DNA from: an uncultured bacterium
GTDB lineage: Bacteria; Chloroflexota; Anaerolineae; J036; Brachytrichaceae
DNA: 35,248 bases
NCBI GenBank assembly: GCA_903921365.1
Contig: CAIXPS010000119.1
Coordinates: 1 to 35,248, forward strand
Direction of reading: 5' to 3'
The translations under genes and the position numbers were made by a program. The notes beneath the pieces were generated by a model. It did no database searches. It was not told the DNA's origin and saw nothing but the letters and a program-made list of their open reading frames with translations. Position 1 is the first letter of the stretch, and each line of letters opens with the position of its first letter. This document shows, piece after piece, positions 20,493 through 35,248 of this stretch.

Positions 20493-21278
20493 TTACACGA
20501 TCGCGACCATGTCTTCATCCAACCCGTGGCGCATGAATTCAAGCCGGTGATTGCCAGTGCGCGAGCCGTTCTCCGGCAGGGACAGTTCAAAGGGAAACAG
20601 CGCGGGGGAGCGGACGACGGAGCGCACCTGGCTGGATCCCGCTGTGAACGCGTGTAAATATGCCTCGGTGAGCCAAAGCGCATAAGCGCCCTGCGCGCGG
20701 CGCGGTTTCGCGGGCTCATAACCACCCACGTGATTGGGTTGCTTTGACAACAATCCCCACTGGGTGATGCTTTGCACCACGCGTTGGGCTGAACGTGTGA
20801 TCGTTTGGCGTTCGCCAAACGTCTCGTAAACGCGCCGCAGGAGTTGCGGCATGTTGAATTCACCCTGCAAGGTCGCCAGCCGCCCGACCGATTCCGCCAC
20901 GGATGCAAAGAATGGATAGACGGCCATCGACATGCCCCAGTGCAACGCCAGACGCTCATCAGCCGCGCCCTGATGCCACAGCAGCAGGCCTTCGTCGCGC
21001 ATGGCGCGCAGGCGCTCAGGCGGCGCCACCCATACATTGACAAGAATGGAAATGACCTTGTCACGGGTGCTGCGCACAGCCTCTGTACCCACGGATACGC
21101 GATCCTTCAATAGGTCTGTGAGCGCAACCTGTGCGGCTGTTTTGTCAAGACCTTGTTGTGCAAGGCCGGCGGCCGCGTCGATCCAGCCAAACTCAACATA
21201 TTGGCTGAACCCTGCCTGCTGGCTGCGGGCGCGTCCATGAAAACGCGGCGCATCACCGCTATCTACTCGTGTGGTCAT
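20493..21278 (-). CDS. brxA: BrxA-like protein of a BREX type 3 operon (DUF1819-like)
   Basis: A 261-residue soluble protein, last gene of the BREX operon. Motif evidence is modest: a helical body with LLWHQGAADERLALHWGMSM and YPFFASVAESVGRLATLQGEF, then ITQWGLLSKQ (winged-helix-like) and YALWLTEAYLHAF. Position and length fit the small BrxA protein that closes type 3 BREX loci after pglZ. BrxA of other types is a DNA-binding protein needed for methylation and defence. I chose the ATG at 21278 because it overlaps the pglZ stop in ATGA; the longer frame runs inside pglZ. The assignment is mainly by context. Confidence 0.7.
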   Translation of the reverse strand: MTTRVDSGDAPRFHGRARSQQAGFSQYVEFGWIDAAAGLAQQGLDKTAAQVALTDLLKDRVSVGTEAVRSTRDKVISILVNVWVAPPERLRAMRDEGLLLWHQGAADERLALHWGMSMAVYPFFASVAESVGRLATLQGEFNMPQLLRRVYETFGERQTITRSAQRVVQSITQWGLLSKQPNHVGGYEPAKPRRAQGAYALWLTEAYLHAFTAGSSQVRSVVRSPALFPFELSLPENGSRTGNHRLEFMRHGLDEDMVAIV

Positions 21279-23440
21279 CCTGGTAATCCTTTTGCGTGTC
21301 TGCCGATGAACACGTACGGCACCACCATTTCTTCCAGCGCAACGCCGCCATGTGTGACAAACGTTTGCCCCACGGGCGCAAACGCTTTCCGCCCGGGCGC
21401 CAATAGCGCGAAGTAATCCGGGGGCAGGCCGATCTGCGGCCACGCCAGGCGGATCGCATCCGGGAAACGCTCACGCGCCCGGCTGCGCAGTGCGGCGCTG
21501 GGATATACGCGCACGCGCTTGTCGCGCAACTCGGTCACGGCGTTATCAGTGAAAAGCCCGATGCCCTGCGCCTCGATATTGCCATGATCCGCCGTAAGCA
21601 CAACGTCAAAGTCGTTTTCCAGCAGCAGATCGAGCGCGCGCGCCAGTATGCCGCGCTCCGCCCATAAGCGCACCTGGCTGCGCATGCCGGCCATCCCCAG
21701 CGGCGTGCCGTGCATGATCTCATCCACCGTATCGAACACCACGCCCAACGCGCGCACGGAGGGATCACGCGCCAGGCGGTTTAATCGGGGCAAATCGTCG
21801 TCGCTGCGCAACGCGCCCACATACCCGACCTGGTCGGGGCGCAATCCCTGCTCTGCCCAGAACCTGCCCCACGCTTTCTCGTCACCGCCGGAGGTATTGA
21901 TGCGGTCGGGGAAGAGCGCAGGAGGCTGGCCCGCAAATAGCGCCTGGCGCGATACCGGCGTCACGGTGGGCGCCCACGCGAACAGTGCGCCATCCTGAAT
22001 ACTGAGCAACGCCCGTTGCTGCAACAACACCTCGCGCAAAATGCGCCACTGGTCAAGCGCCAGACCGTCAATCACCACAAGCGCACACCTGTGCTGCGGG
22101 TTGGCGCGCAGTTGGCGCGCAAGCGCGCGCGGGATGTGATGCACCATCGCCGGTGTGAGCGGCGAAAGGTTGTGCAGCCCGGCGTATCCTGCCAGCATCC
22201 ATTGGCCAAACGCCTCGTCGATGCGCTGCTGTAGCGTCATGAATTGTTGTGTCAGGTTCGGGCTATGCCGGTCGCTCGCGGTCACGGCCTGATCATGCCA
22301 GGACGACATTGCCTCGGCCCAGCGCAGGGCAAACGCAATCCATTCTGTGTGACGCGCGTCGGCGCCAGGTATGTCTTTGGAGAGTGTTTCGAGCAACCGA
22401 GCCAGCCGCTTGAGCCGCCCGGCTACTGCGTCCACACGAATCCCGACGTTCAACAGTGCATCAGTGAAAAGCTGTCGCAGCGCGCCGGCGGGCGCATCGT
22501 CGGACGGCGCCACATCAATCGGGCGCAACCGCCCATCCAGGAACAACGTGTCGATATAAGGGCGCACCTGCGCATGATCAAATGGGAGCACGGACGGACC
22601 GGGATAGGCGAAGAGCACGCCCTGCGCCTCGCCGAACAGGGCTAAACCGTTTACCTCCTTGATATGGGAACGCACAAACGCCGGCCAGCGCTCTTGCAGA
22701 AAGGCATAGGTCGCTTCGGCGCTCGTGAGCAGCCTCTCCAGCGGCCATTCGGCCAGCAGCGCATGGCTTTGCATTCCCTGCCACAAGACCGCGACCCGGT
22801 TGGCAAAATCGCCCGGCAGCGCGGACATCCCGCGCCGCGTCTCGTGCAGGCGCAATAGCGCGACGAGCGCATCACTCTCGGAAGGGGCGCGCTGCATGTC
22901 CAACCCGAAGACGCGCCCCAGGATAAAGTCCGTGCTGGCGTCTTTGCCCAGCATCTGCGGCCCAAAATCCATGCCCATAGCCGACTGTTCGTGATACAGC
23001 GCGTCGAGGTCGGCGCGCGCGAGCATGGTCACGGCGCCGGTGTGCAGGTTGGGGAAAAGATCGGCCAGCCCGAAGCGCAGTTGCTGGCCGCCCGATCGCG
23101 CCGCGCTGAGCAAATCCCACGGCAGGCGTTGCAACGCCTCCGCATCGCCGTTCACCAGAATGACCAACGCCCGCTCTACCCCGCTGTCGCCCGGCGCCTC
23201 TGCTGTATCGGCATCTTCCCGGGCGAGCCGGAACTCGCTCTCATACTGGTAACGCAACGCCATCAGGTCGCTGCTGTTCGGGTCATAAGTGAGCACGCCG
23301 CAACCCCTTTGCCGCAATTGACCGAGCACCCGTTCATCGTCGACCAGGCCATCCGGGTCCGCGACCAGTGTGACGCGCGCGCCCGGCGTGAATGCGTCGA
23401 GTATGCGGTCGCTGAGCGAGTAATCCAGCGGCGATGTCAT
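21275..23440 (-). CDS. pglZ: BREX phosphatase-like protein PglZ
   Basis: A 721-residue protein. The C-terminal third is an alkaline-phosphatase-superfamily domain: ALVVIDGLALDQW near residue 450 carries the first metal-binding Asp, VVLTADHGNIEAQG near 615 the Asp-His pair, and FVTHGGVALEEMVVPYV near 700 the last His. The N-terminal two thirds (LVADPDGLVDDERV..., then helical) match the PglZ proteins of BREX. PglZ is a core defence component that associates with PglX and nucleic acid; a phosphatase or nuclease activity is supported in some systems only. It starts 12 bases after the pglX stop with no helicase gene between, and overlaps brxA by 4 bases. Confidence 0.88.
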   Translation of the reverse strand: MTSPLDYSLSDRILDAFTPGARVTLVADPDGLVDDERVLGQLRQRGCGVLTYDPNSSDLMALRYQYESEFRLAREDADTAEAPGDSGVERALVILVNGDAEALQRLPWDLLSAARSGGQQLRFGLADLFPNLHTGAVTMLARADLDALYHEQSAMGMDFGPQMLGKDASTDFILGRVFGLDMQRAPSESDALVALLRLHETRRGMSALPGDFANRVAVLWQGMQSHALLAEWPLERLLTSAEATYAFLQERWPAFVRSHIKEVNGLALFGEAQGVLFAYPGPSVLPFDHAQVRPYIDTLFLDGRLRPIDVAPSDDAPAGALRQLFTDALLNVGIRVDAVAGRLKRLARLLETLSKDIPGADARHTEWIAFALRWAEAMSSWHDQAVTASDRHSPNLTQQFMTLQQRIDEAFGQWMLAGYAGLHNLSPLTPAMVHHIPRALARQLRANPQHRCALVVIDGLALDQWRILREVLLQQRALLSIQDGALFAWAPTVTPVSRQALFAGQPPALFPDRINTSGGDEKAWGRFWAEQGLRPDQVGYVGALRSDDDLPRLNRLARDPSVRALGVVFDTVDEIMHGTPLGMAGMRSQVRLWAERGILARALDLLLENDFDVVLTADHGNIEAQGIGLFTDNAVTELRDKRVRVYPSAALRSRARERFPDAIRLAWPQIGLPPDYFALLAPGRKAFAPVGQTFVTHGGVALEEMVVPYVFIGRHAKGLPG

Positions 23441-23452
23441 GACCAGTTACGC

Positions 23453-26400
23453 TTAACCGCCCAGGCGCGCCTGCGCCTGGCCGTACCACAGCAACAGCCT
23501 GGGGTCTTCGTTGACCACATCCTCGGGCAGCCGCTTGCCGATCTCCACGATGGTCTGAAAGTCGCGCGATTGCCAGGCGCGCTTGAAGCCGGCGCGCAAC
23601 GCTTCCAGGCGGAACTCGCGCAACCGCCGCGGTGCGCCCGTCCCTTTGCGCTTCTTTGTGGCGGGCTCGCCGATCAACAACGGTGTTGTGTCACCCAGGA
23701 TCACCGCCAGGTACCCGTCGAACTCGCGCAGCAGTTGCGTTTCGCGGATGCGCTCCAGGTCGCCGGCCTTGTTGGGATCGGGCACGTACCAGCGCCCGTT
23801 GGCCTTGGCGCGCAGAGCGGGGTCGTCCTTGGGCAGGTTGCGGCACTCCTTGAAGTTGGTCGAGAGATAGCCGTGGATCTGGTTAGGCACATCGGCGGCG
23901 CCCTCGTAGCGCAGGAAGTTGAGCGCCAGCAGGTCCTGCAATTCTGGCCGCACTTCGTACTTCTTCCACCCGGCGTTGAGTTGTTGCATGAACTCAGGGA
24001 GCAGGTCTTGCGTGGTGCTGGGTCGCGCGCCGAGGGTGTTGCGCAGCCAGTCGATGGCGCTACGCTCGTCCTGCACGAAGAGCGCCTGCTGCCCCAGCTC
24101 CCCCGCGCGCAGGCGGCGCCGGTCGTATTCGGCCGCCTGGTCGCTGAGGAAAGCCATGTTGTCGCGCATGATGAAACGCTCGGCCAGGCCGGTCTGGAAG
24201 TCGATGGAGGACAACGGCACCGGGAAACCATGCCGCACGAAGTAGGCCACCACGCGGTCGTACAGGATGCGCGGGTCGCGCTCGATCACCACCTCCAGGC
24301 GGTTTCCTTTCATGCGCGTGACGGGCAGATAATGCAGGTGCGCGCGCACGAAGTCCCATGTCGAGGCTTCGCCGCCGCCGGCGCGGGTGAAGCGCTCCTC
24401 CAACCCGCCATTGGGTTTGTACGCGCTGATGACCAGGTCCTGCTTGACCGCCGTGGTTGTGGTGACGGCTTTGAAGCTGCCGCGCTGCTTATCCAGCACC
24501 GAGACGTTGGCCACGACGAAACCGGCTTCCTGTAATGCGGTCTGAATGGCGTTCCACACGCTGGCCTGCGTGTTGCTAAACTCTACGGTCATCCAGCGAC
24601 CCGGCTTGAGGATACGGAACGCCTCTGCAAAGCAGCGCGTCATCAAGACGCGGTATTGGTCAAGTCCTTTGTTCTGGGTCTTGCTTTGGACAGCTTCCGG
24701 CTTGTTATTTGTGATATCCCTGAGCCAGGCTTCCCATAGGAAGTTCAGGTCAGAGTACATAAGATTATCGCCAAACGGCGGATCGATAAACAGGTAATCT
24801 GCGCTTTCATCAGGCATTGAGATGCGTTCTGCGCTCTGGGTCGCGATAACCGTATTTCTGATGCGCTGTTGAGAAAAGGCGCGCTTCAAGCGTTTGAGCT
24901 TTTCTGTAAAAGCATAGTCCGGTGATACCTCAGAAATCTGTGAGCCAAAGTAAAGCGTGCCCGCAAGATTGCGATTATTTTGTGAGAAATGATGCGGCGA
25001 GTACCGGTTTAGCCTTGAGAAACCAATGATCCACTGTTCAAACAAGAAGCGGCAGAACGAGCCCACCCTCCTATCTTTTACCTCGTTGGCTTTGTAAAGT
25101 AAAGCCGAGAGTATCCATTTACTTCGCTGAACATAGTAATGATGCACATGCGTGACACCGGTGCGATCGTTCCGTCGCGCTTCATCTCCCTCGGGCATTC
25201 GATCAGCGGGAAACCAATATGGACTATCCAATTTGTCAACATGAGAAAGGATAGCTTTATCGAAAACGTCTGCTGATTTCTCATAGTGACGCTTGCCGAT
25301 AGAGTAATTTAGCAATACTGGTGTTTGACGAGTTTGGCGAATAGTCCTATTCAGTGTACGGTCATAGTAGCTGGACCATGCATGGGCCAGCGCACGTTTA
25401 GTAACTTCAACGTTGCAATGCGGACAGAAAAAAGCTTCGCGCACCATGCCAGACTCGTGATCAACAGCGGCATCCCAGAACACGATCTCGCCATTGCATT
25501 GTGGGCACACAAACACATCGCTCCACACCGTGTAATTGATGCGGCCCATCTTGTCTTTGTGGGCGGCGATCAAGGCGCGCGCATCGTCGGCGCTATGGCA
25601 GGCGCGCAACTGATCGGCCAGCGCTCCCCTCTCCCCTGCCCCTCTCCCAGAGGGAGAGGGGTTAGGGGAGAGGGTGGCATACATCCAGCCGCACTCGGCC
25701 TCAACCTCAGCCAGGATGCGTTTGGCCTCGCGCTCGAAGGCGTCTACATCCACCGGCGTGTTGTAGTTGTAGGCGATAAAAGTGGCAGCGGGTGACAGGT
25801 CATTCAGAATGGCGCGGCGGGCGCCCAGGCGCGTGAACGGTTTCCACACCTGCTTGACGACGCCCGCCTCATCCTGCGCCTCTTCCTGTCGCAGGACAGT
25901 GCCATCATCGTCCACGCGATAGCCCAGTGACTCCACGGCCTTGCGGTCGCCGCACAGTTGGGCGGCTACGCCGGTCATACCCGTGCCGCAGAAGCCGTCA
26001 AAAACCACGTCGCCCGGCTCGGTGTAGTGCAAAATGTAGCGCATGATGGCTTTGTGCGGCACTTTGGTGTGGTAGCTGTGCGCGTTGTAGATCGGGTCGT
26101 TCTTGCCTTCGCTCACGTCGGCGGCGAATGGTTCGCGGCTGTAGGGCGGCTGGGGATCAGTCGCTTCGGGCGAGGAGTTCTGCCAGTGTTGCAGGAAATC
26201 CGGGATGAACGGGTTGGGACAGGCGGTGTAATAAGGCGGGTCGGACAAGGCCAGGATGTCGTCATCGCTGCCGATGGGAAAACCCTCGATCCGGCGGAAA
26301 GCGGGGTCTTGCAGTTTCGCGCGCAGCTTTGCGGTGAAGTAGGCGCGGCGTTCCGCGTCACTGTCGAACGTTAGACCCAGGCAGGCGACCGGCGTGGATT

Positions 26401-26479
26401 CGCCGGCCTGACCGGTCGTGTAGAGCGAAGGCGTCTCCAGCAGGCGCGCCTGGTGGTGAGTGGCGTAAGTGTCAATCAT
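23453..26479 (-). CDS. pglX: BREX type 3 DNA methyltransferase PglX (PglXI)
   Basis: A 1008-residue amino-methyltransferase. Catalytic motif IV appears as LSDPPYYTACPNPF at residues 78-91 and SAM-binding motif I as FDGFCGTGMTG at 160-170, so the motifs are permuted. A zinc ribbon (Cys 325, 328, 352, 355) follows, and a second DPPFGDNLMYSD lies near 565. It should methylate a short host DNA motif that marks self against phage. Between residues 269 and 285 it has an in-frame insert (SPNPSPSGRGAGERG) encoded by a palindromic repeat. The segment around 24.7-25.5 kb has clearly lower GC than its flanks. Its start overlaps the brxC stop by 8 bases. Confidence 0.88.
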   Translation of the reverse strand: MIDTYATHHQARLLETPSLYTTGQAGESTPVACLGLTFDSDAERRAYFTAKLRAKLQDPAFRRIEGFPIGSDDDILALSDPPYYTACPNPFIPDFLQHWQNSSPEATDPQPPYSREPFAADVSEGKNDPIYNAHSYHTKVPHKAIMRYILHYTEPGDVVFDGFCGTGMTGVAAQLCGDRKAVESLGYRVDDDGTVLRQEEAQDEAGVVKQVWKPFTRLGARRAILNDLSPAATFIAYNYNTPVDVDAFEREAKRILAEVEAECGWMYATLSPNPSPSGRGAGERGALADQLRACHSADDARALIAAHKDKMGRINYTVWSDVFVCPQCNGEIVFWDAAVDHESGMVREAFFCPHCNVEVTKRALAHAWSSYYDRTLNRTIRQTRQTPVLLNYSIGKRHYEKSADVFDKAILSHVDKLDSPYWFPADRMPEGDEARRNDRTGVTHVHHYYVQRSKWILSALLYKANEVKDRRVGSFCRFLFEQWIIGFSRLNRYSPHHFSQNNRNLAGTLYFGSQISEVSPDYAFTEKLKRLKRAFSQQRIRNTVIATQSAERISMPDESADYLFIDPPFGDNLMYSDLNFLWEAWLRDITNNKPEAVQSKTQNKGLDQYRVLMTRCFAEAFRILKPGRWMTVEFSNTQASVWNAIQTALQEAGFVVANVSVLDKQRGSFKAVTTTTAVKQDLVISAYKPNGGLEERFTRAGGGEASTWDFVRAHLHYLPVTRMKGNRLEVVIERDPRILYDRVVAYFVRHGFPVPLSSIDFQTGLAERFIMRDNMAFLSDQAAEYDRRRLRAGELGQQALFVQDERSAIDWLRNTLGARPSTTQDLLPEFMQQLNAGWKKYEVRPELQDLLALNFLRYEGAADVPNQIHGYLSTNFKECRNLPKDDPALRAKANGRWYVPDPNKAGDLERIRETQLLREFDGYLAVILGDTTPLLIGEPATKKRKGTGAPRRLREFRLEALRAGFKRAWQSRDFQTIVEIGKRLPEDVVNEDPRLLLWYGQAQARLGG
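25627..25674. repeat. Palindromic repeat inserted in frame within pglX
   Basis: A 48-base imperfect palindrome of pyrimidine-rich CCCTCTCCCC and purine-rich GGGGAGAGGG arms. It belongs to a recognisable class of dispersed bacterial repeats that translate as SPNPSPSGRG, and here it is in frame. Confidence 0.8.
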
Positions 26480-29400
26480 AGAGAGTAATCAGCGCAACGC
26501 GCACCTTGGCCGGGTCTTTGCCATGCGCCAGGCTATCGACGTAGCGCTCGAAGCGTTGCTTGATTTCATCGGGTGTGGCAGGCAGGCCGCCAGCAGACAA
26601 GCACGCTTGCACATCCGCCTGTTTCATAAACACCTGTTGCAGCCCGGATAGCGCTTCCTTCACCGCTTCGACAAACTCCTCGGAGAGCGGCTCGGGCAGC
26701 TTCTGACCACGGATGAACAGCGCGATGCGATCCCGGTCGGCCTCCTGCATCGCGGCGATGCTGGGCTGGGTAACCTGCGCCTGCAGTTCCTCCAGCAACG
26801 TGCGCGTGAAGTCGGCCAACAGGCGATCCTGTTCGGCGTCAAACTGCTTGAGTTGTTCGCCGACGGGCTGCGGGGCGCTCTCGCGCGCCGGGTTAAAGCT
26901 GCACTGCGGGCAGATGGCGGCATTTTGCAGATCAGCCTGCGTCAACGTGAAGCACGACTGCAAATTGCCCAGCCTGGCCTGATAGGTGACCAGTTGGGTG
27001 TGCCACAGCGGGTTGATCCGGCCAAGCTGCCGCAGCTTGATCAACCGGGGATCGCGCATCAAGGCCACTTTACGATGATCCTGCTCGGCCGTCAGGCGCG
27101 CGCGCCCATGCAAGGCCAGGTAGGCGCCGGCATAGTCCTGTTTGAGCGCGGTCAGTTTCTGCAACGCCTGCTGCCTGAATCCAGGCTTGGCGCGTTGCGC
27201 CGGGGCCGCCAGTTGCGTCGCCAGTTCGTCGCGCAATGCCTTGGCGCGCTCCAGCCAGGGGTATTCGGGCGGCAAGACCAGCTCCGCCTGCGCCAGATAG
27301 CCAGTGAATGGTTGCAATTCGGCCAGCAGATCAAACAGCGCCTGCAACGCGTTGAGCGTGTCGAGCGCCGGTTGCTGCGCCTTCACGGAAGAGACATCGT
27401 GTTGGAAGTTCTTCAACTGAGCGGCAGTGCGGTAATTCTGAACGCCGTCAAAGAACGTCTTTGCCGCATCCAGGTCGCGTTGATAGCCCGCCAGTTCCTG
27501 ATCGGCCAGGATGCCCTTGCCCCAGAAAGCCGGGACGGATTGCAGGCGGTGCCGCATCGTCGCAATCTGCCGGGCGCGCTCCTCGACGGCGGTTTGCAGT
27601 TGTTTGAAGGAGGCCTCCTGTCCCTGCGCGATCATGTCCGCTGAGCCGGGCGGCAGCCCCACCAGTTCGAACAGCGCCCGCAACGCGGCGATATTCCATT
27701 CTTTGGGCGGTTCGATATGCTTGAAGTTGGCCAGTTCCTGCACCGGCTTCGCAACCAGCCGGTCGAAATTGGCAGCGTCAAACTTCTCGCCCGGCAGCAC
27801 CAGCACCGCATCGCCGTTATAGACCAGCGCGCCAAGCAACACGGCCACCCACTCAGGCTCCAGGCGGTAGCGTCGCGCCGCCATGTATTCCACGCCCTGG
27901 ACGTTCTCGATCAACTCGTTGCGGTTGAGCACCTGGCCAGCCGGCTTCTGGCGCAATAGCTGGATGATGTAAGCCGCATACCGCGAGTGTGTCACGTTGA
28001 CGCGCTCGCCGTCCAGCAACTCCAGCGCGTCCAGCACCGCCGTGCCCTGTTGCGTGCGCGCCAGACCGCGCAGGAAGCGCAAAGCGTCCTGACCGGCCTG
28101 GGCGCGGTTGCTGGATGTAATCAGCGTCGCAAACTTCGGGTACTCCGGCGCGGCGTTCTCGAAGTGCGGCGCAAGGCAGGCCGATGCGACGGCGTTGACC
28201 ATGTCGCGCACGTTCGTGAGCTTTGCGCCCGCGGCAGCGGGGCGGTTGGTCAACCATTCCATCATCTTGCGCGTTTTGCCCTGGCAGGTGACAGTGACTG
28301 ATGCCGCCATGTTGCCTTGCAGCCAGCGCACCAGTTCGCGCAGATAGCCATAGGCTTTGGTTTCGTACACACTCTTGGCCTGGCCGGATGATTCCTGGAA
28401 CAGAATGCTCGCCGCGGCATACTTGGTGAGCGCCAGGCTGAACGCGTCGTCGGTCTCTTTGAGCTTGAAGAATACATCGTTGGACAGCTTCTCGTCGCGG
28501 AAGCGCGCGGACGACTTGTGTGGCATGAAATAGATGTAAAAGTCGCGCGGCGGCGCTGCCGTCGAGCGCTCGTTGGGCGTGCCAAAGAACAGGTAGCCCA
28601 GGCGCGTGGCGCGGCGCTCCTGCCATTCCAACTCGTGCTCCCAGATTCGGTAGCCGGTGACGTAGGTCTGGTCCACGCATTCCATGACGCGTTTGAGCGC
28701 CTCAAAATAGTAGCGATCCAGTTCATCTTCGCTCAAGGCTTCGGCGCGCTTATCCAACTGCGCGTCATAGTCCACAACTTTGCGCGCGTCCAGGTAAAAC
28801 TGTCCGCTGGGCGTGCCTCGCGCATCCCGTTCGGTGGAGGACAGGAACTGCCCATTCACCACGCGCGAGATCGTGATTAACGCCACCTCAACCTCGCCGC
28901 GCAAATCATCGGCGGGGTCGCCGCCCATCTCGGCGACCAGCGGGTCATACAGGCATAGCATGTCGCGCAGATTCGGGGCGGTCAGACCCACGGCTGTGTC
29001 GATGTTGCCTGTGGAGAGCCGGTGCACGCTCAGGCCATGAATGATGCGGCGCGCGAACGCCTTGTTCCTGCCCTTCGGATATTGCGTATCAATCAGGCTT
29101 TCAAGCTTGTTGCTGCAATCGATCACCTCGCGCACGTCCGGGATGGTGCGGAAGGCGGGATTCTGGCGCAATGTTTCCCAGTACGCGTCGAATGACAGTA
29201 TGCCGGGTTGGTCTTCCGGCAAGTCGCTGTCGAGCATGCGCTCCATGGCGCGCGAGAGCGTCCGCAGAACTTCGCGCCGTTCGACGACCACCAGGCGGTC
29301 GAATACTTCGACATAGTCGGGGTGGATAGGGAACATACTCACGAACTCTTCCATCCGCCCCGCCATGCCCTCATAGTATTTGGCGAAACCGCTCAAGCGC

Positions 29401-30215
29401 TCCTCCACCGCGGCGCGTTGTTGGGGCGTTTTCTTCAACAGGCGTTGGGCAACCACATACTTCACGTCTTTGCGCGCGATCAACACCTGCTCAAAACGGT
29501 CGCGCACGCGCAGCACTGTGCCAGCGACGAACGAGAACCGCGCGTTGTCAAAGAGCGTCTCCTGCAAGCCGCCGATGAAGCGAAATCTTAGGTCCTTGCA
29601 GACCTCGCCCACCTCACGCAGAAACTGGAGGTCCTGGATCAATTCCTGGTCCTTGCGCGTTCGCAGGAAATCCAGCAGTTCATCCACGGCCAGCAGGACG
29701 CCCATACCGGGGTGCTTTAGTTCGAAGGCGGCCATCATGTCCTCAAAGGACGCTTTGCTGTTGATGACCTGGGTTGCGGGCGGGAAGCGATAGGCGACGC
29801 CAAGCGATTCCAGGAATTCTTCCAGGACTGCGACGACAATGTCGCGCAACGACATCTGTGTAGAGCCAATTTCCGCGCGCGCGACCTTGAATCGCCCTGC
29901 AATCTGAGCGGCGCTTTTGCGCGCGGCGTCGTGTTCTAATTTGCCCAGCAGTTCCGCGTGCTCGGCGACGGCGGTGATCACTGACATGAGATGCGATTTA
30001 CCGGTGCCGTAGTTGCCCACAATCAACAAACCACGGTTATCCGCCGGGTGGTCAAACTGCAACTGGGGAATAACGATGGATAGCAGGCGCTCGGCCATCT
30101 CTTCTGAGATCACGAACGTGGAGACCAACTGGGTGGCGCGGCTCAAGTCGTCCGCGTCGCGCAATTGCACCACCGTTTCGATTGGATCGAACTGGATGAG
30201 ATCACGGTACTTCAT
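26472..30215 (-). CDS. brxC: BREX type 3 P-loop ATPase BrxC (DUF6079)
   Basis: A 1247-residue ATPase. Walker A is GNYGTGKS (residues 67-74) and Walker B VLLAVDE (173-179). The AAA-like core runs through about residue 450. It is followed by a long helical body and, near residue 1100, a Cys pair (ICPQC). The length and the start MKYRDLIQFDPIETVVQL match the DUF6079-type BrxC of type 3 BREX. BrxC proteins are required for both methylation and phage exclusion and probably form nucleotide-dependent assemblies on DNA. The ATG overlaps the brxF stop in ATGA and the gene end overlaps pglX by 8 bases, so the operon is tightly coupled. Confidence 0.88.
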   Translation of the reverse strand: MKYRDLIQFDPIETVVQLRDADDLSRATQLVSTFVISEEMAERLLSIVIPQLQFDHPADNRGLLIVGNYGTGKSHLMSVITAVAEHAELLGKLEHDAARKSAAQIAGRFKVARAEIGSTQMSLRDIVVAVLEEFLESLGVAYRFPPATQVINSKASFEDMMAAFELKHPGMGVLLAVDELLDFLRTRKDQELIQDLQFLREVGEVCKDLRFRFIGGLQETLFDNARFSFVAGTVLRVRDRFEQVLIARKDVKYVVAQRLLKKTPQQRAAVEERLSGFAKYYEGMAGRMEEFVSMFPIHPDYVEVFDRLVVVERREVLRTLSRAMERMLDSDLPEDQPGILSFDAYWETLRQNPAFRTIPDVREVIDCSNKLESLIDTQYPKGRNKAFARRIIHGLSVHRLSTGNIDTAVGLTAPNLRDMLCLYDPLVAEMGGDPADDLRGEVEVALITISRVVNGQFLSSTERDARGTPSGQFYLDARKVVDYDAQLDKRAEALSEDELDRYYFEALKRVMECVDQTYVTGYRIWEHELEWQERRATRLGYLFFGTPNERSTAAPPRDFYIYFMPHKSSARFRDEKLSNDVFFKLKETDDAFSLALTKYAAASILFQESSGQAKSVYETKAYGYLRELVRWLQGNMAASVTVTCQGKTRKMMEWLTNRPAAAGAKLTNVRDMVNAVASACLAPHFENAAPEYPKFATLITSSNRAQAGQDALRFLRGLARTQQGTAVLDALELLDGERVNVTHSRYAAYIIQLLRQKPAGQVLNRNELIENVQGVEYMAARRYRLEPEWVAVLLGALVYNGDAVLVLPGEKFDAANFDRLVAKPVQELANFKHIEPPKEWNIAALRALFELVGLPPGSADMIAQGQEASFKQLQTAVEERARQIATMRHRLQSVPAFWGKGILADQELAGYQRDLDAAKTFFDGVQNYRTAAQLKNFQHDVSSVKAQQPALDTLNALQALFDLLAELQPFTGYLAQAELVLPPEYPWLERAKALRDELATQLAAPAQRAKPGFRQQALQKLTALKQDYAGAYLALHGRARLTAEQDHRKVALMRDPRLIKLRQLGRINPLWHTQLVTYQARLGNLQSCFTLTQADLQNAAICPQCSFNPARESAPQPVGEQLKQFDAEQDRLLADFTRTLLEELQAQVTQPSIAAMQEADRDRIALFIRGQKLPEPLSEEFVEAVKEALSGLQQVFMKQADVQACLSAGGLPATPDEIKQRFERYVDSLAHGKDPAKVRVALITLYD

Positions 30216-30742
30216 TGATATTGACGATCTTCCTTAAGAATGACTTCCACCCCATTATGACGTAGTTCGGCCTGAGCATAATGGCGATATTCCACATGGC
30301 CGGGTTGCGCATAACTCAAGTTCCCACCGTCGGCGGCGCCGGGCCACATCACCACGAGCCGAGTGTTGCGGGCGACATTTGCAAGCAAACCAAGCGGGTC
30401 CTGGCGGAGTTGCTGATCGAAAAGAACTTCGATGGTATCGAGCACGACGCCGCCGCTTTTTTGCGCCTCGACGATTTGCCGCACGGCCACCAGCACTTCG
30501 GCTGGCCGGCGACGCGGTAACACCTCAATTAATCGACGACTCAGCGCCAGCCCCAACCGAACCAGCGGATATTCAAGCGCCTGCGCCAGATACCCGGATG
30601 CCGCTCGGCTCTTATCTCTATCAGGCAAAACGACGACGATAAGTTGACGCCCCGCTAGCAGCGCCGACTGTACTTTCAGCTCGATGCCTGTATCAAAGTG
30701 GGGAAGTTCCATGAGTTCCGTCAATTCTATAGACAATCGCAT
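30212..30742 (-). CDS. brxF: BREX type 3 protein BrxF with degenerate P-loop
   Basis: A 176-residue protein, first gene of the BREX operon. The conserved C-terminal block GGVVLDTIEVLFDQQLRQDP, then LVVMWPGA and LSYAQPGHVEYRHY, is the recognisable BrxF signature of type 3 systems. The Walker A position reads VVLPDRDKS: the Lys-Ser is kept but the glycines are lost, so nucleotide binding is doubtful. The frame is open upstream to a TTG at 30781, which lies inside the intergenic palindrome, so I favour the ATG at 30742. An ATG at 30712 (MELPHFDTG) is a possible alternative. A weak minus-strand promoter (TTGTAG-N18-TTATAC) overlaps the divergent operator. Confidence 0.8.
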   Translation of the reverse strand: MRLSIELTELMELPHFDTGIELKVQSALLAGRQLIVVVLPDRDKSRAASGYLAQALEYPLVRLGLALSRRLIEVLPRRRPAEVLVAVRQIVEAQKSGGVVLDTIEVLFDQQLRQDPLGLLANVARNTRLVVMWPGAADGGNLSYAQPGHVEYRHYAQAELRHNGVEVILKEDRQYQ

Positions 30743-30762
30743 CCCCTGCAAGGGGACGGCTG

Positions 30763-30796
30763 TATAATCTTTGTAGCGCAATACGCTACAAAGGAG
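30763..30796. promoter_or_regulatory. -10 box, palindromic operator and RBS of the Phd/PIN operon
   Basis: On the plus strand: TATAAT (30763-30768), then a perfect inverted repeat TTTGTAGCG-N5-CGCTACAAA (30770-30792), then AGGAG (30792-30796) 5 bases before the antitoxin ATG. The palindrome covers the likely transcript start, the usual place for an autoregulatory antitoxin operator. It also lies just upstream of brxF on the other strand. No good -35 box is seen. Confidence 0.75.
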
Positions 30797-30801
30797 CTGA
30801 A

Positions 30802-31155
30802 ATGGAGTTTATACCCTATCGAGTCTTACGAAATGAACCTGCTGCCCTGCGCAAGAAGCTGCAAGACGAGGGCGAAGTGGTGGTAACGGTGGATGGCAAA
30901 CCTTTTGCGGTGATGATCGACCTGGCCGGCAGCGAGGATATGGATGATATTTTGCTCATGGTTTCACGCCTGCGGGCGCAAATGGCGGCGCGCGCGATTC
31001 GCAGCCAGTCCCGGCGCGATGGGCTGGATCACCTGAGCGAAGAACAAGTGGATGCGCTTATCCAGAAAACACGCGCGGAGCGCAAAAACGGCTCGGCGTC
31101 CCTCGCGGATGGCTCTGCATCCCCTGCGGATTGCTCGGCCTCCATTGGGGAATGA
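30802..31155 (+). CDS. Phd/YefM-family antitoxin
   Basis: A 117-residue antitoxin. The N-terminal Phd/YefM DNA-binding fold reads FIPYRVLRNEPAALRKKLQD followed by GEVVVTVDGKPFAVMIDLAG (about residues 24-43), with the characteristic G-P/F-AVMI strand. The C-terminal part would wrap the PIN toxin. The last ~21 residues are a Ser/Ala repeat (GSASLAD, GSASPAD, CSASIGE) from a 21-base tandem repeat, unusual for an antitoxin tail. AGGAG lies 5 bases before the ATG. The stop overlaps the toxin start in ATGA. It probably represses its own promoter through the palindrome, and perhaps also the divergent BREX operon. Confidence 0.88.
   Translation: MEFIPYRVLRNEPAALRKKLQDEGEVVVTVDGKPFAVMIDLAGSEDMDDILLMVSRLRAQMAARAIRSQSRRDGLDHLSEEQVDALIQKTRAERKNGSASLADGSASPADCSASIGE
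31090..31152. repeat. 21-base tandem repeat, 3 copies, at the end of the antitoxin gene
   Basis: Three imperfect 21-base units (31090-31110, 31111-31131, 31132-31152) encode GSASLAD, GSASPAD and CSASIGE. The last unit also holds the toxin's ribosome-binding region (GGGGA). The number of units may alter toxin translation. Confidence 0.7.
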
Positions 31156-31571
31156 TGTTGGTAGTTTTGGATACAAACGTCTTGGTCAGTGGGCTAATGA
31201 GCACAACAGGCAAGCCTGCGATGATCATTGACCTGGTCCTTGAAAATCGTTTTCAGGTCGCGTACGATAACCGGATTCTGGGTGAATATGAAGATGTGCT
31301 GGCGCGACCCGAACTGCGTATTCAACCGGCGCGCGCCAAGGCAGTGATTGCGTATATTGAACTGACCGGGCGTGAAATTGAGCCCGGCGTCCTGCTTCCA
31401 GATGGGTTTCAAGACCTTGATGATCTGCCGTTTGCAGAGGTGTTCATCACAGCCAATGCTCAGGCTTTGGTGACTGGCAACCTGCGTCATTTTTCCGCAT
31501 TAGTTGCAAAAGGATTGGCAGTGTTTTCTCCATCTCAGTTTCTTGAACGGTGTTTCCCGCGGAGCGAATGA
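31152..31571 (+). CDS. PIN-domain toxin (TIGR00305 type)
   Basis: A 139-residue PIN-domain RNase. MLVVLDTNVLVSGL gives the first catalytic Asp, EYEDVLARPEL the conserved Glu, DLDDLPFAEVF the second Asp cluster, and VTGNLRHF the last metal-side motif. The acidic active site is therefore intact. The family is the toxin half of Phd- or VapB-type modules and cleaves RNA when free. MM at the start gives two overlapping options (31152 and 31155), both within the antitoxin end; GGGGA upstream serves as ribosome-binding site. The longer reading from a TTG at 31131 is unlikely. It ends 28 bases from the convergent M23-like gene. Confidence 0.9.
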   Translation: MMLVVLDTNVLVSGLMSTTGKPAMIIDLVLENRFQVAYDNRILGEYEDVLARPELRIQPARAKAVIAYIELTGREIEPGVLLPDGFQDLDDLPFAEVFITANAQALVTGNLRHFSALVAKGLAVFSPSQFLERCFPRSE

Positions 31572-31599: not shown

Positions 31600-33189
31600 T
31601 CACCACTGCACCCCATTCGTATACAGTTCCTTGCACTCGCATGGTGTCCGTGTGAGCCGGCCGTTCGTGATCGCCCCGTCATACTCCATCTCTCCCTCCG
31701 AAGCCACCCACCCGCCGATCACAAACGGCGTCGCGCCCACGGCGTTCAGCCATTCGCCGTTGTACTTGCGCGCCAGGTGGACGTGCGAGCCGTTGGTGAC
31801 GCCTCCTTCGCACGAGGGATGGCCGATGGGATCGCCAATGGTCACGCGATCGCCCACTTTGACCCGGCCGTCCGAGCGGATGTGCATGTAGAGAATGCTC
31901 CAGCCGGTGTGCTCGTCACCGCTGGGGTCGAGCGACTCCACGACCTCGCCGTTGAAGCTGCGCGCGATCGTGCCAGTGATCATCGCCGTGACCCAGTCGT
32001 TCAGTTCGTTACAGCCGTACCCGCTCATCGAGGTGAAGTCGAGCGCGCCCCACGGCGACCCGGCGCCCCAGGTGCTGTGCGGCCCGCCGGTGAACAGCCA
32101 CGTCTCGCCCTTCGTCCACGGTAAAGTCAGCGTGGGCTGTTTGAGATCATCCGGCACGAGTTGACCAAGATCATATTGCCACGGATCGCCGAACAGGCGC
32201 TTGTAGGTCTGGATGAACCCGTTAGTCCCGTTGCCCAGCACATTCAGCCAGACCGGCTGCGTACTGACAGCCGCGAGGTAGTTCTGCACCCCGGCTGTGC
32301 CGGCGTTGATCCCGTTGCCCATGAAGGCCCTCTGGCCGTCGTCGAGGCGCACCCACAGCCGGGTCGCCAGCCGCCAGCCGTAGTACCCTTCGTTCAAGCG
32401 CATGGCCGCCCAGTTCAACTGCACGTTCAGGTTGTCGCCCTTCGTGCGCACATACCCCAGTGGGAACTTCAATCGGTCTCCCGTCGGCGCCGGGTCGTCC
32501 AGCCAGCCGCCCTTGTATTCGAGCAGCGCCAGCAGGAGGCGCGGATGCACGCTGTATTGCTCTGCGACGCGCGCGACAAGATGTGCGCCGGTCATTTCCA
32601 CACCCTCGACCGTCTCGGTATAAGTGTTCAGATAGCCCTGCGGGTGCGCCGCCATGTACGCGTCGATGTTGAACTGAATGGCGGTCGGGCTGTTGACCAA
32701 CTCGCTATCGGGGATCAGCTTGATCGATGGGGCGTGCCCCTCAATCAGCAGATGGATGTCGATGATCTGCCCGGCCTTGAGCATGTCAGCATCAGTCAGG
32801 TTATTCATCTGCAACAACTCGGAGATGGTGGCGCCAGTCGCGACCGCGATCCCGCTCAACGTATCGCCGCTGCGGACGATGTAGGTCGAAGTAATCACGC
32901 CATGTATGGGGATATTCCGCAATGGATCGAGCGTCGGCGTCGCGCGAGCGGGCGCATCGGTTACGGTGGGCGCCATCGCAGGGCCGCTGCGGGGGGCTAT
33001 AGAAGCCTGCCCCTGGACAGTCGCGGTTGCCGTGGTAGGGGTGCCCGCCGATTCATCGGTGGGCGGCATGTTCGTCGATGCCGGTGCGGTGCTGCATGCA
33101 ATCAAAGCGACGCTGGCGACCAGCGCAAGACATAATTCTATTGTTCTACTGCGTCTCACCGCTCCAATTCTAACCAAACGGCGTGACAA
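31600..33189 (-). CDS. LysM plus M23-like peptidase lipoprotein
   Basis: A 529-residue exported protein. A basic N-terminus and a hydrophobic stretch end in the lipobox LIAC (C32), so it should be a lipoprotein. A Pro/Thr-rich linker follows and one LysM domain is at residues 102-147 (TYIVRSGDTLSGIA). The middle region (LLALLEYKGGWLDDP) is shared with the neighbouring paralog. The C-terminal M23-type domain has GGPHSTWGAGSPWGALDF near 366 (metal-side His and Asp) and GSHVHLARKYNGEW near 465 (HxH). It would bind and cut peptidoglycan or another glycan-peptide at the cell surface. The start is uncertain: the first codon is TTG and a GTG at 33159 has GGAG only two bases away. Confidence 0.85.
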   Translation of the reverse strand: MSRRLVRIGAVRRSRTIELCLALVASVALIACSTAPASTNMPPTDESAGTPTTATATVQGQASIAPRSGPAMAPTVTDAPARATPTLDPLRNIPIHGVITSTYIVRSGDTLSGIAVATGATISELLQMNNLTDADMLKAGQIIDIHLLIEGHAPSIKLIPDSELVNSPTAIQFNIDAYMAAHPQGYLNTYTETVEGVEMTGAHLVARVAEQYSVHPRLLLALLEYKGGWLDDPAPTGDRLKFPLGYVRTKGDNLNVQLNWAAMRLNEGYYGWRLATRLWVRLDDGQRAFMGNGINAGTAGVQNYLAAVSTQPVWLNVLGNGTNGFIQTYKRLFGDPWQYDLGQLVPDDLKQPTLTLPWTKGETWLFTGGPHSTWGAGSPWGALDFTSMSGYGCNELNDWVTAMITGTIARSFNGEVVESLDPSGDEHTGWSILYMHIRSDGRVKVGDRVTIGDPIGHPSCEGGVTNGSHVHLARKYNGEWLNAVGATPFVIGGWVASEGEMEYDGAITNGRLTRTPCECKELYTNGVQW

Positions 33190-33284
33190 CTACATGACCG
33201 CCGGGCTAAGGAGCCCACCGATCGGCATACGAAGAGCAGGAAGCAGGGGCCATGCAATCTCTAATCCCAAATCTCCACTCTCTC

Positions 33285-34826
33285 TTACTGCGCAATCCCG
33301 TTCGTCTCCAAATCCTTACACTGGCACGGTTGCCGCGTCAGTGTCCCGTTCGAGATGGCGCCGTCGTACTCCTGCGGCCCCTCGGACACCGTCCAGCCGC
33401 TCATCGTGAAGGGGATTTCGCCCGTGGTGAGCCATTCGCCGTTGTACTTGCGCGCCAGATGCAGGTGCGAGCCAGTCGATGCGCCACCCTCGCACGATGG
33501 ATGCCCGATGTGCGAGCCAGCGACTACGCGATCCCCAACCTTGACGCGGTCGGGCGTGCCCATGTGCATGTAGAAGATGCTCCAGCCGATGCGCTCGTCG
33601 CCGCTGGGGTCGAGGGATTCGACCACCTCGCCATAGACGCTGCGCGTAATGATGCCGGGGGCCAGTGCGGTCACAAACGGCGGCAACGATCCGCAGCCGG
33701 AGGATCCGGAGGGCACAAAGTCAACGGCGCCCCACGGCGATCCAATGCCCCAGGTGGCGTGCGGCCCGCCGGTGATCAGCCATGTCTCGCCCTTCGCCCA
33801 CGGTAATGCCAATTCGATCTGCTCCAACCCGTCCGGGACCAGTTGGCCCACGCCAGATGCGAGCTGCCACGGGTCGCCAAACAGGCGCTTGTAGGTCTGG
33901 ATGAAGCCATTCTCACCCATCGCAGCGAGGTATGTGCCATGCGTGCTGACGGCGGCGAGGTAATTCTGCAACCCGGCGGTGCCGGCATTGATGCCGTCGC
34001 CCATGTAGGCCTTCCCGCCATCATTGAACTTGACCCACAGGCGCGTGGCCAACCGCCAGCCGTAGTAGCCTTCGTTCAGCCGCGCCCCTGCCCAGTACAG
34101 TTGCTTGGCGAACGTCCTGCGATCCGTGGTGGTGACACCGAGCGGATACGACAGGCGCGACCCCGCCGGGGATGGATTGTCCACCCAGCCGCCCTCATAT
34201 TCCAACAATGCCAGCAACAGGCGCGGATGCACGCTGAGTTGCTCGGCCACCCGCTGCACGATTTGCGCGCCGGGCATGTCTTTGCCGTCAAACTTTTCGC
34301 TGTAGCGGTTGAGATAGCCTTTGTGCCCCGCCATGAACGCGGCGACATCGAACTGCGCCGCCGTGGGGCTGTTGACCATCTCGCTATCCGGGATCAATTT
34401 GAGCGCGGGCGCGTGATCCTTGATCGGCAGGCGGAACTTGAGCGTCTGCCCTATCTGGAGATTGGTCGAACCCGCCGGCATGCCGTTCATGCGCTGCAGG
34501 TCCGCGACAGTCATGCCCAGGGCGGCAGCAATGCCCCCCAGCGTCTCGCCCGCGCGCACGGTGTAGGTGGCGGTGACCGTGCCGCTGGACGATACACTTC
34601 GCAAGGGATCAAAGTCTGGCGTGGGTCGAAGCCCCGTTACGCTGTTCGCTCCTGCACCCGCATCGGCAGGTGGAGTGACCGCTGTGTTGCCGGTGGAATT
34701 CGCATTGGTAGTCGCTTGCGCCGGCGCGTCAACACGAGTCACAGCGATGTTCCCGGATGCGCGCGTGCAGGCGGCGAGCGCGCCAAGCGCGCCACAAAGG
34801 AGTAGTGTGACGCAAAACCGCGTCAT
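33285..34826 (-). CDS. LysM plus M23-like peptidase lipoprotein (tandem paralog)
   Basis: A 513-residue paralog of the downstream neighbour, roughly 60-65% identical over the shared parts. The signal peptide ends in lipobox LAAC (C20). LysM lies at 87-133 (TYTVRAGETLGGIA). The shared middle is LSVHPRLLLALLEYEGGW. The M23-type domain has GGPHATWGIGSPWGAVDF and GSHLHLARKYNGEW. All expected catalytic and metal residues are visible. AAAGG lies about 8 bases before the ATG at 34826, so I prefer it to the earlier ATG at 34850. The pair probably arose by tandem duplication. It lies next to the origin-like region. Confidence 0.88.
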   Translation of the reverse strand: MTRFCVTLLLCGALGALAACTRASGNIAVTRVDAPAQATTNANSTGNTAVTPPADAGAGANSVTGLRPTPDFDPLRSVSSSGTVTATYTVRAGETLGGIAAALGMTVADLQRMNGMPAGSTNLQIGQTLKFRLPIKDHAPALKLIPDSEMVNSPTAAQFDVAAFMAGHKGYLNRYSEKFDGKDMPGAQIVQRVAEQLSVHPRLLLALLEYEGGWVDNPSPAGSRLSYPLGVTTTDRRTFAKQLYWAGARLNEGYYGWRLATRLWVKFNDGGKAYMGDGINAGTAGLQNYLAAVSTHGTYLAAMGENGFIQTYKRLFGDPWQLASGVGQLVPDGLEQIELALPWAKGETWLITGGPHATWGIGSPWGAVDFVPSGSSGCGSLPPFVTALAPGIITRSVYGEVVESLDPSGDERIGWSIFYMHMGTPDRVKVGDRVVAGSHIGHPSCEGGASTGSHLHLARKYNGEWLTTGEIPFTMSGWTVSEGPQEYDGAISNGTLTRQPCQCKDLETNGIAQ

Positions 34827-34879
34827 TGGAGTGCCTTTCACGTCAGGCATTTTAGCATCTGGAGGTCATTGGCCCAGTT

Positions 34880-35248
34880 TTCAACAGGGATTCCGGCCTT
34901 ATCCACAACCGTGTGGATAGGCAATGTGGATTCAGTCGGTGAAAAATCAGCGCTGCCGCCAGATATGTGCAGCATGCTCACTTATCCACATATCCACACG
35001 AGCGGTTATAAACAGGATGTCAATCCTGTGGGGTAGGCTGAGCACTAGTGGCTACATGTACGGTCTGCGATTCAGGCGGGTGTTTTTGGGATAAACACTA
35101 TCCCACATGGGATAAACAAGCCGGTCGTTGCGAAATGAGAGTATTGGCCTACCTGTGGCGCGCGCAATATCCAAACCGCCACAGGTAGGTTAAGACGAGA
35201 TTATCCCCAATTTCAACACCCCTACTACTAAATCCTAAAGAATAATAA
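34880..35248. other. oriC: Probable chromosomal replication origin (oriC), runs to window end
   Basis: This 370-base non-coding stretch has two perfect DnaA boxes, TTATCCACA (34899-34907 and 34982-34990). One-mismatch boxes are CTATCCACA (34912-34920, reverse strand), ATATCCACA (34990-34998) and TTATCCCCA (35201-35209). A palindrome TATCCCA-CA-TGGGATA (35099-35114) overlaps two direct repeats of GGGATAAACA (35088-35097, 35109-35118; 21 bases apart). The last 50 bases (CCCCTACTACTAAATCC...) are AT-rich and could be the unwinding element. dnaA or dnaN would be expected just beyond the edge. No coding region is seen here. Confidence 0.72.
35148..35189. repeat. 13-bp perfect inverted repeat in the origin-like region
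   Basis: CCTACCTGTGGCG (35148-35160) and CGCCACAGGTAGG (35177-35189), 16 bases apart. It could form a stable hairpin or be a protein site beside the DnaA boxes. Confidence 0.85.

Follow-up and report, generated by a model that had tools for sequence, protein, structure and literature searches.

A putative chromosomal replication origin away from dnaA in an uncultured member of the Anaerolineae

Introduction

Does the right end of a contig that carries a cluster of DnaA boxes, and that leads to a translin-like gene, contain the chromosomal origin of replication (oriC) of its host? The window analysed here, the whole stretch of 35,248 bp, is the entire contig C119 of a 6.88-Mb draft genome in 603 contigs (G000). 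The host is an uncultured member of the class Anaerolineae, from the family containing 'Candidatus Roseilinea'. Origins of the Chloroflexota are hardly described. In the open-licence literature, no title on origins was found among papers mentioning both oriC and Anaerolineae, the combinations of oriC with Roseilinea, Chloroflexi with DnaA box and Dehalococcoides with oriC gave no match on the subject, and no paper linking translin with a replication origin was found.

The right end of the contig is very probably the chromosomal oriC of this bacterium, displaced from dnaA. This reading, which bears out the preliminary description of an origin-like region, has a computed basis: the sequence elements, a basal unwinding system (BUS) with a single occurrence in the genome, conservation ahead of the translin-like gene within the family and a GC skew switch in a relative (G023). 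DnaA binding and unwinding at the candidate, and any role of two accessory elements, we infer from the sequence.

The contig end and its neighbouring genes

The candidate is intergenic and lies between a LysM/M23 gene and the translin-like gene, which is reached through an overlap with a second contig, C187:

34878..35248, no strand: putative chromosomal origin (oriC), recognised by its boxes, unique BUS, family conservation and the skew in relative G023
33285..34850, minus strand: gene for a LysM and peptidase M23 protein, transcribed away from the origin
35108..35248, no strand: 141 bp identical to the end of C187 (L032), the overlap leading to the translin-like gene

The last 141 bp of the window are the reverse complement of the end of C187 (3,548 bp), an exact length that suggests a k-mer overlap where the assembly graph branches. 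The join is supported because the M23 homologue, the origin region and the translin-like gene are all found on one contig in G003 and G004, which belong to the same genus. Past the join, a translin/Trax-like protein of 217 residues begins a few bases beyond the window end, followed on C187 by a repeat protein and a family-4 glycosidase; no replication protein was detected among the three C187 proteins scanned. The profile of the translin-like family matches the archaeal Trax structure 3zc1 (AFTRAX) with an E-value of 4.5e-30, and Pfam Translin is matched weakly, by all 12 members with an E-value of at most 0.1 (best 0.0001). The family also matches NCBIfam models named 'haloacid dehalogenase superfamily protein', with the window's member below the cut-offs.

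The suggestion that dnaA would follow directly beyond the right edge had to be abandoned: C187 carries the translin-like gene at this place, and dnaA is located on contig C292, next to a gene which, judged from its sequence, we take to be sigma-factor-like. No box with at most one mismatch was present in the ~770 bp upstream of the dnaA start or in the ~1.6 kb past the gene.

Elsewhere in the window, two adjacent LysM and M23-type paralogues with 59% identity occupy 31600-34850 (minus strand). A BREX-type island, in which PglZ, a PglX/PglXI methyltransferase, a BrxC/PglY ATPase and BrxF stand in a row (PADLOC matches), spans 21275-30781 on the minus strand. Beside it, at 30802-31571 (plus strand), are two small overlapping open reading frames, which by eye resemble an antitoxin/PIN-toxin pair; this pair had no PADLOC match.

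DnaA boxes and the unwinding module

The candidate contains the following sites:

34899..34907, plus strand: DnaA box TTATCCACA, perfect (box scan)
34912..34920, minus strand: DnaA box CTATCCACA, one mismatch (box scan)
34982..34990, plus strand: DnaA box TTATCCACA, perfect (box scan)
34990..34998, plus strand: DnaA box ATATCCACA, one mismatch, overlapping the preceding box by one base
35006..35014, plus strand: weak DnaA-like site TTATAAACA, two mismatches (box scan)
35201..35209, plus strand: BUS DnaA box TTATCCCCA, one mismatch (box scan, pattern search)
35210..35218, plus strand: second, weak BUS box ATTTCAACA, three mismatches (criteria of PMC8287927)
35222..35230, plus strand: DnaA-trios CTACTACTA, three times 3'-GAT-5' on the lower strand (pattern search)
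35231..35248, no strand: AT-rich start of the presumed unwinding region, running on into C187

Five boxes within 311 bp, two perfect and three with one mismatch, agree base for base with the preliminary description. If up to one mismatch is allowed, the whole window holds 12 boxes, of which the seven outside the cluster are scattered. Exact copies of TTATCCACA occur 43 times in the 6.88-Mb genome; two of them lie here, 83 bp apart. Among these 43 exact sites of the whole genome, pairs less than 100 bp apart exist only here and on contig C217 (8085/8096, upstream of ftsZ), with ~0.03 such pairs expected by chance (arithmetic from the 43 sites). The cluster is therefore rare elsewhere, if five boxes in 311 bp are set beside a genome-wide count of exact boxes.

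Two other box groups were observed. On C217 (L251, 8085-8104, in G000), two exact boxes stand 11 bp apart just upstream of ftsZ, and DnaA control of division is possible there. At the dnaA loci L083, L085, L089, L090, L092, L109 and L110, from several Anaerolineae families, a three-box array with a spacing of ~20-22 bp was found.

The arrangement of box, spacer and trios at 35201-35230 had been absent from the preliminary description. It begins at 35201 with TTATCCCCA, followed by ATTTCAACA, CCC, CTACTACTA and then AT-rich DNA. According to PMC8287927, a BUS has at least three trios of the pattern 3'-NAN-5', most commonly 3'-GAT-5', and a spacer that peaks at 10-13 bp and measures at most 16 bp. 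In the window, CTACTACTA reads 3'-GATGATGAT-5' and provides three trios, the minimum number. The first box, for which up to two mismatches and up to 16 bp to the trios are allowed, has one mismatch and a spacer of 12; the second, for which up to four mismatches next to the first box are allowed, has three mismatches and a gap of 0.

The pattern TTATCCMCA-N9..17-CTACTA has a single genomic site in G000, the second listing being the copy of the 141-bp overlap on C187, and the reversed-pattern control of this search gave 0 matches. The pattern is present in 12 of the 60 genomes searched, G000 included, and a stricter version in 21 of 249 class members. In most of these matches, the spacer is C-rich and a second box is present (TTATCCACAtTATCCACAGCCCCTACTA is an example).

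A box cluster could also belong to a region for DnaA titration or to a DnaA-regulated promoter (datA/DARS-like, or autoregulation of the M23 or translin-like gene) instead of an origin. Clusters outside origins do exist, as the ftsZ-proximal pair of the same genome illustrates, and the three boxes following dnaA in several relatives may be regulatory. However, a DnaA-trio module with the correct spacing is found only once in the genome, and the skew of G023 switches at this locus (see below), so that we consider a titration or promoter region very improbable.

Conservation and location in relatives

The translin-like gene was found in 53 of the 60 genomes. The family is represented by 28 genomes, and 22 of its translin loci were scanned for boxes. 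At 14 of the 22 loci, a box with at most one mismatch lies within 450 bp upstream of the gene, and seven have no boxes directly upstream; at one of these seven (G008), a BUS is located ~2.6 kb upstream. At the remaining locus (G003), where the gene is split, the box region is present on the other contig. In other families, the same upstream scan gave no box at any of eight loci. Most members of the family with a translin-like gene thus also have the box region ahead of it. In G001, from the same genus (L033 16200-16755 and L034 1-1340), at least three tandem origin units were observed upstream of the translin-like gene; they are offset by ~536 bp, 90.6% identical and each equipped with its own BUS. 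This genome has four BUS matches altogether, but one copy, seen on two contigs, may have been counted twice.

Other relatives have their candidate elsewhere. An aminotransferase and a methyltransferase gene flank the BUS of G011, a phospholipase-D/lamin-tail protein and a methyltransferase flank the large box cluster with BUS of G017, and the BUS and boxes of G030 adjoin dnaA; the neighbourhood of the candidate origin therefore differs between genera. In a DnaA tree, built to order the origin moves, the deep branches are not separated, and no order is claimed.

The region might alternatively be the origin of an integrated or extrachromosomal element, such as a plasmid, that was binned with the chromosome. 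The contig end is an assembly branch point, and the window contains the BREX island; BREX defence islands are typical of mobile neighbourhoods. Several genera nevertheless share this arrangement ahead of the translin-like gene, G023 has it within its one contig of 4.67 Mb, and an unsystematic look at the flanks showed no plasmid replication gene; an element-borne origin is thus scarcely credible.

GC skew

G023 is the sole single-contig family member among the 60 genomes (4.67 Mb), and its skew was sampled in 40 stretches of 20 kb. The origin interval of the best two-arm fit is 3.15-3.17 Mb (r = 0.67), and 1 of 2000 permutations did as well. When the two stretches chosen at the gene were left out, the best interval was 3.11-3.26 Mb (r = 0.656), with the next one, 3.26-3.39 Mb, almost as good (r = 0.654). 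The translin-like gene is located at 3.163 Mb and dnaA at 4.021 Mb. The sampled skew of G023 thus puts the origin within ~10 kb of the translin-like gene and 0.86 Mb from dnaA.

In the window itself, the cumulative G-C has its minimum at 34.5 kb, beside the origin region, a value that applies at contig scale only in a draft of 603 contigs. The 3.4 kb to the right of the window have a skew near zero (+0.0016), and the right-hand contig of G001 is slightly negative. In G053, the skew fit is significant (7 of 5000 permutations), but the best interval is 0.99-1.21 Mb, and the one with the BUS (0.505 Mb) ranks third. For G056, the BUS falls into the best interval of a fit that lacks significance (851 of 5000 permutations).

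The preliminary description had held that the lack of adjacent replication genes, together with the lack of a skew inversion, would speak against an origin. Among the three C187 proteins scanned there is indeed no replication protein; however, the comparative data show this part of the test to be too strict here.

Two accessory elements

Besides boxes and trios, the candidate contains two conserved elements, which are probable sites with a putative function:

34959..34970, no strand: CCAGATATGTGC, match to CCNNATATNNGG at -242 from the BUS box (offset converted to window coordinates)
35052..35063, no strand: CTACATGTACGG, match to CCNNATATNNGG at -149 (offset converted)
35088..35097, plus strand: first copy of GGGATAAACA, at -113 relative to the BUS box, as in G003 and G008
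35099..35105, minus strand: TATCCCA, in inverted orientation between the two copies, forming the left half of TATCCCACATGGGATA (35099-35114)
35109..35118, plus strand: second copy of GGGATAAACA, at -92 relative to the BUS box, as in G003 and G008
35147..35158, no strand: palindrome GCCTACCTGTGG, left arm of the inverted repeat, at -54 from the BUS box
35178..35189, no strand: palindrome GCCACAGGTAGG, right arm of the inverted repeat, at -23 from the BUS box

The 13-bp inverted repeat noticed earlier is real and part of a wider paired-palindrome element. Its arms (35141-35160 and 35177-35196) are 85% complementary over 20 nt, with a perfect core of 13 nt (35148-35160 and 35177-35189); the AT-rich end follows CTACTACTA (35222-35230). 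The pair consists of degenerate CCNNATATNNGG palindromes at 35147 and 35178, 31 bp apart, with modest scores of 7.3 and 6.8. The motif was obtained from 19 training origins with masked DnaA boxes, in which the strongest leftover words were of the ATATATGG type (16 of 19) and expectation maximisation (EM) yielded CCNNATATNNGG.

The training origins contain 53 matches to the palindrome, compared to 5.3 in shuffles. Fifteen held-out origins of class members have 35 matches, compared to 3.95 in composition-keeping shuffles, and those outside family f27 have 20, compared to ~2.6. Four of 19 untrained places had been dropped from the held-out set for want of a further DnaA box, and none of the four has a match (0.3 to 0.5 expected each). 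The best training offsets are -23 and -54, occupied within 2 bp in 16 and 14 of the 19 origins (mean elsewhere 7%). In the held-out set, -23 is again the top offset, and -23 and -54 are found in six and five of 15 (mean 6%); single other offsets also reach five of 15 (0.333), partly from family f27. Pairs 28-34 bp apart number 17 in training (4.2 expected), 10 in the held-out set of 16 with G008 added (2.4 expected; 0 of 2000) and five outside f27 (1.3 expected; 12 of 2000). Paired copies ~31 bp apart thus recur in held-out Anaerolineae origins at other loci.

In an earlier test, 10 held-out box regions beside dnaA had 10 matches, compared to 2.7 in shuffles (maximum 7), and five of the regions were empty; this result is weaker than that of the later test, perhaps because some of these regions are not origins. 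As a general mark of dnaA promoters, the palindrome was rejected (12 matches, 18.9 expected, over 42 dnaA loci). A copy of CCATATATGG was noted ~340 bp (-341) upstream of dnaA in G053 and G192, which belong to one genus (L087 2651 and L323 1501). At eight BUS-pattern loci of Chloroflexota outside the Anaerolineae, the palindrome was detected only in G428 and G275, neither with another box; the other six had no match.

The second element is the repeat GGGATAAACA, for which a distance of two helical turns had been described; this spacing holds, with 21 bp from start to start. In both G000 and G003, the GGRATAAACA pair occupies -113/-92, and G008 has it at this offset too, in the form GCGATAAACA/TGGATAAACA; the similarity includes the stretch that separates the copies (TCCC[AC]CAC-like). 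The pair thus keeps its offset in three species of two genera; G004 and G011 have a single copy at -93 that is one base off. In the 28 family genomes, RATAMACA-N13-RATAMACA occurs at five places, three of which are these origins and two of which lie elsewhere, one of them in G000 itself (C272); the reversed control gave one match. A variant DnaA site is conceivable because TTATCCC, which the terminal box also has, can be read on the lower strand of GGRATAAACA; the box frame, however, does not include the conserved ACA end. GGRATAAACA may thus be a variant DnaA site or the site of another protein.

Neither accessory element was described in the open-licence literature searched, and to our knowledge CCNNATATNNGG and GGRATAAACA match none of the consensus sites of SeqA, CtrA, Fis and IHF. 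In one interpretation of the motifs, on which we are evenly divided, CCNNATATNNGG would form an undescribed two-site element of Anaerolineae origins, three turns apart and often at -54/-23, independent of the gene neighbourhood and bound by a dimeric origin regulator, and the GGRATAAACA pair (-113/-92) would add, within part of one family, either another site or a DnaA site of variant form. Both pairs could instead be by-products of shared ancestry or composition and no protein sites at all. Related genomes are not independent, five held-out origins share family f27 with one training genome, the palindrome is degenerate with weak copies in the window, and some other held-out offsets reach the same fraction. 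Against this stand the excess of matches and of spaced pairs over the shuffles, which persists outside f27, and a GGRATAAACA pair that holds its position despite diverged flanks. By-products are therefore unlikely, though a good deal less so than the rivals of the origin itself.

Proposed course of initiation

In the proposed mechanism, DnaA would load at two places, the upstream group of boxes (34899-34998) and the terminal pair (35201-35218); from there, a DnaA filament would extend onto the DnaA-trios (35222-35230). The filament on the trios would open the AT-rich DNA ending at the translin-like gene on the next contig. The palindromes at -54/-23 and the GGRATAAACA sites at -113/-92 probably recruit accessory proteins or extra DnaA. 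The data provide an oriC map of a whole class, the Anaerolineae, that can be put to the test. Among the genera of one family, the candidate origin changes its gene neighbourhood but retains the unwinding module, and one or more of its conserved sites suggest a binding protein as yet unassigned.

Comparison with known origins

The mechanism is ordinary, with a standard unwinding core; the placement is unusual, and two conserved accessory elements are added. With the BUS-type oriC described for Bacillus subtilis and by survey in PMC8287927 and PMC6669920, the candidate shares the box pair, the GC-rich spacer, three 3'-GAT-5' trios, AT-rich DNA and further boxes upstream. It differs in its position away from dnaA, in the terminal box TTATCCCCA and in having a GGRATAAACA pair and a paired palindrome, both at fixed offsets. 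Origins apart from dnaA are known, for example in the gidA-mioC interval of Escherichia coli and Yersinia (PMC10225481); in contrast to these, the neighbour here is a translin/Trax-like gene, and other BUS-type candidates of the Anaerolineae are found at yet other loci. PMC10225481 also lists origins with sites for the accessory proteins SeqA, CtrA, Fis and IHF, which the candidate resembles in having putative non-DnaA sites at fixed positions inside the origin.
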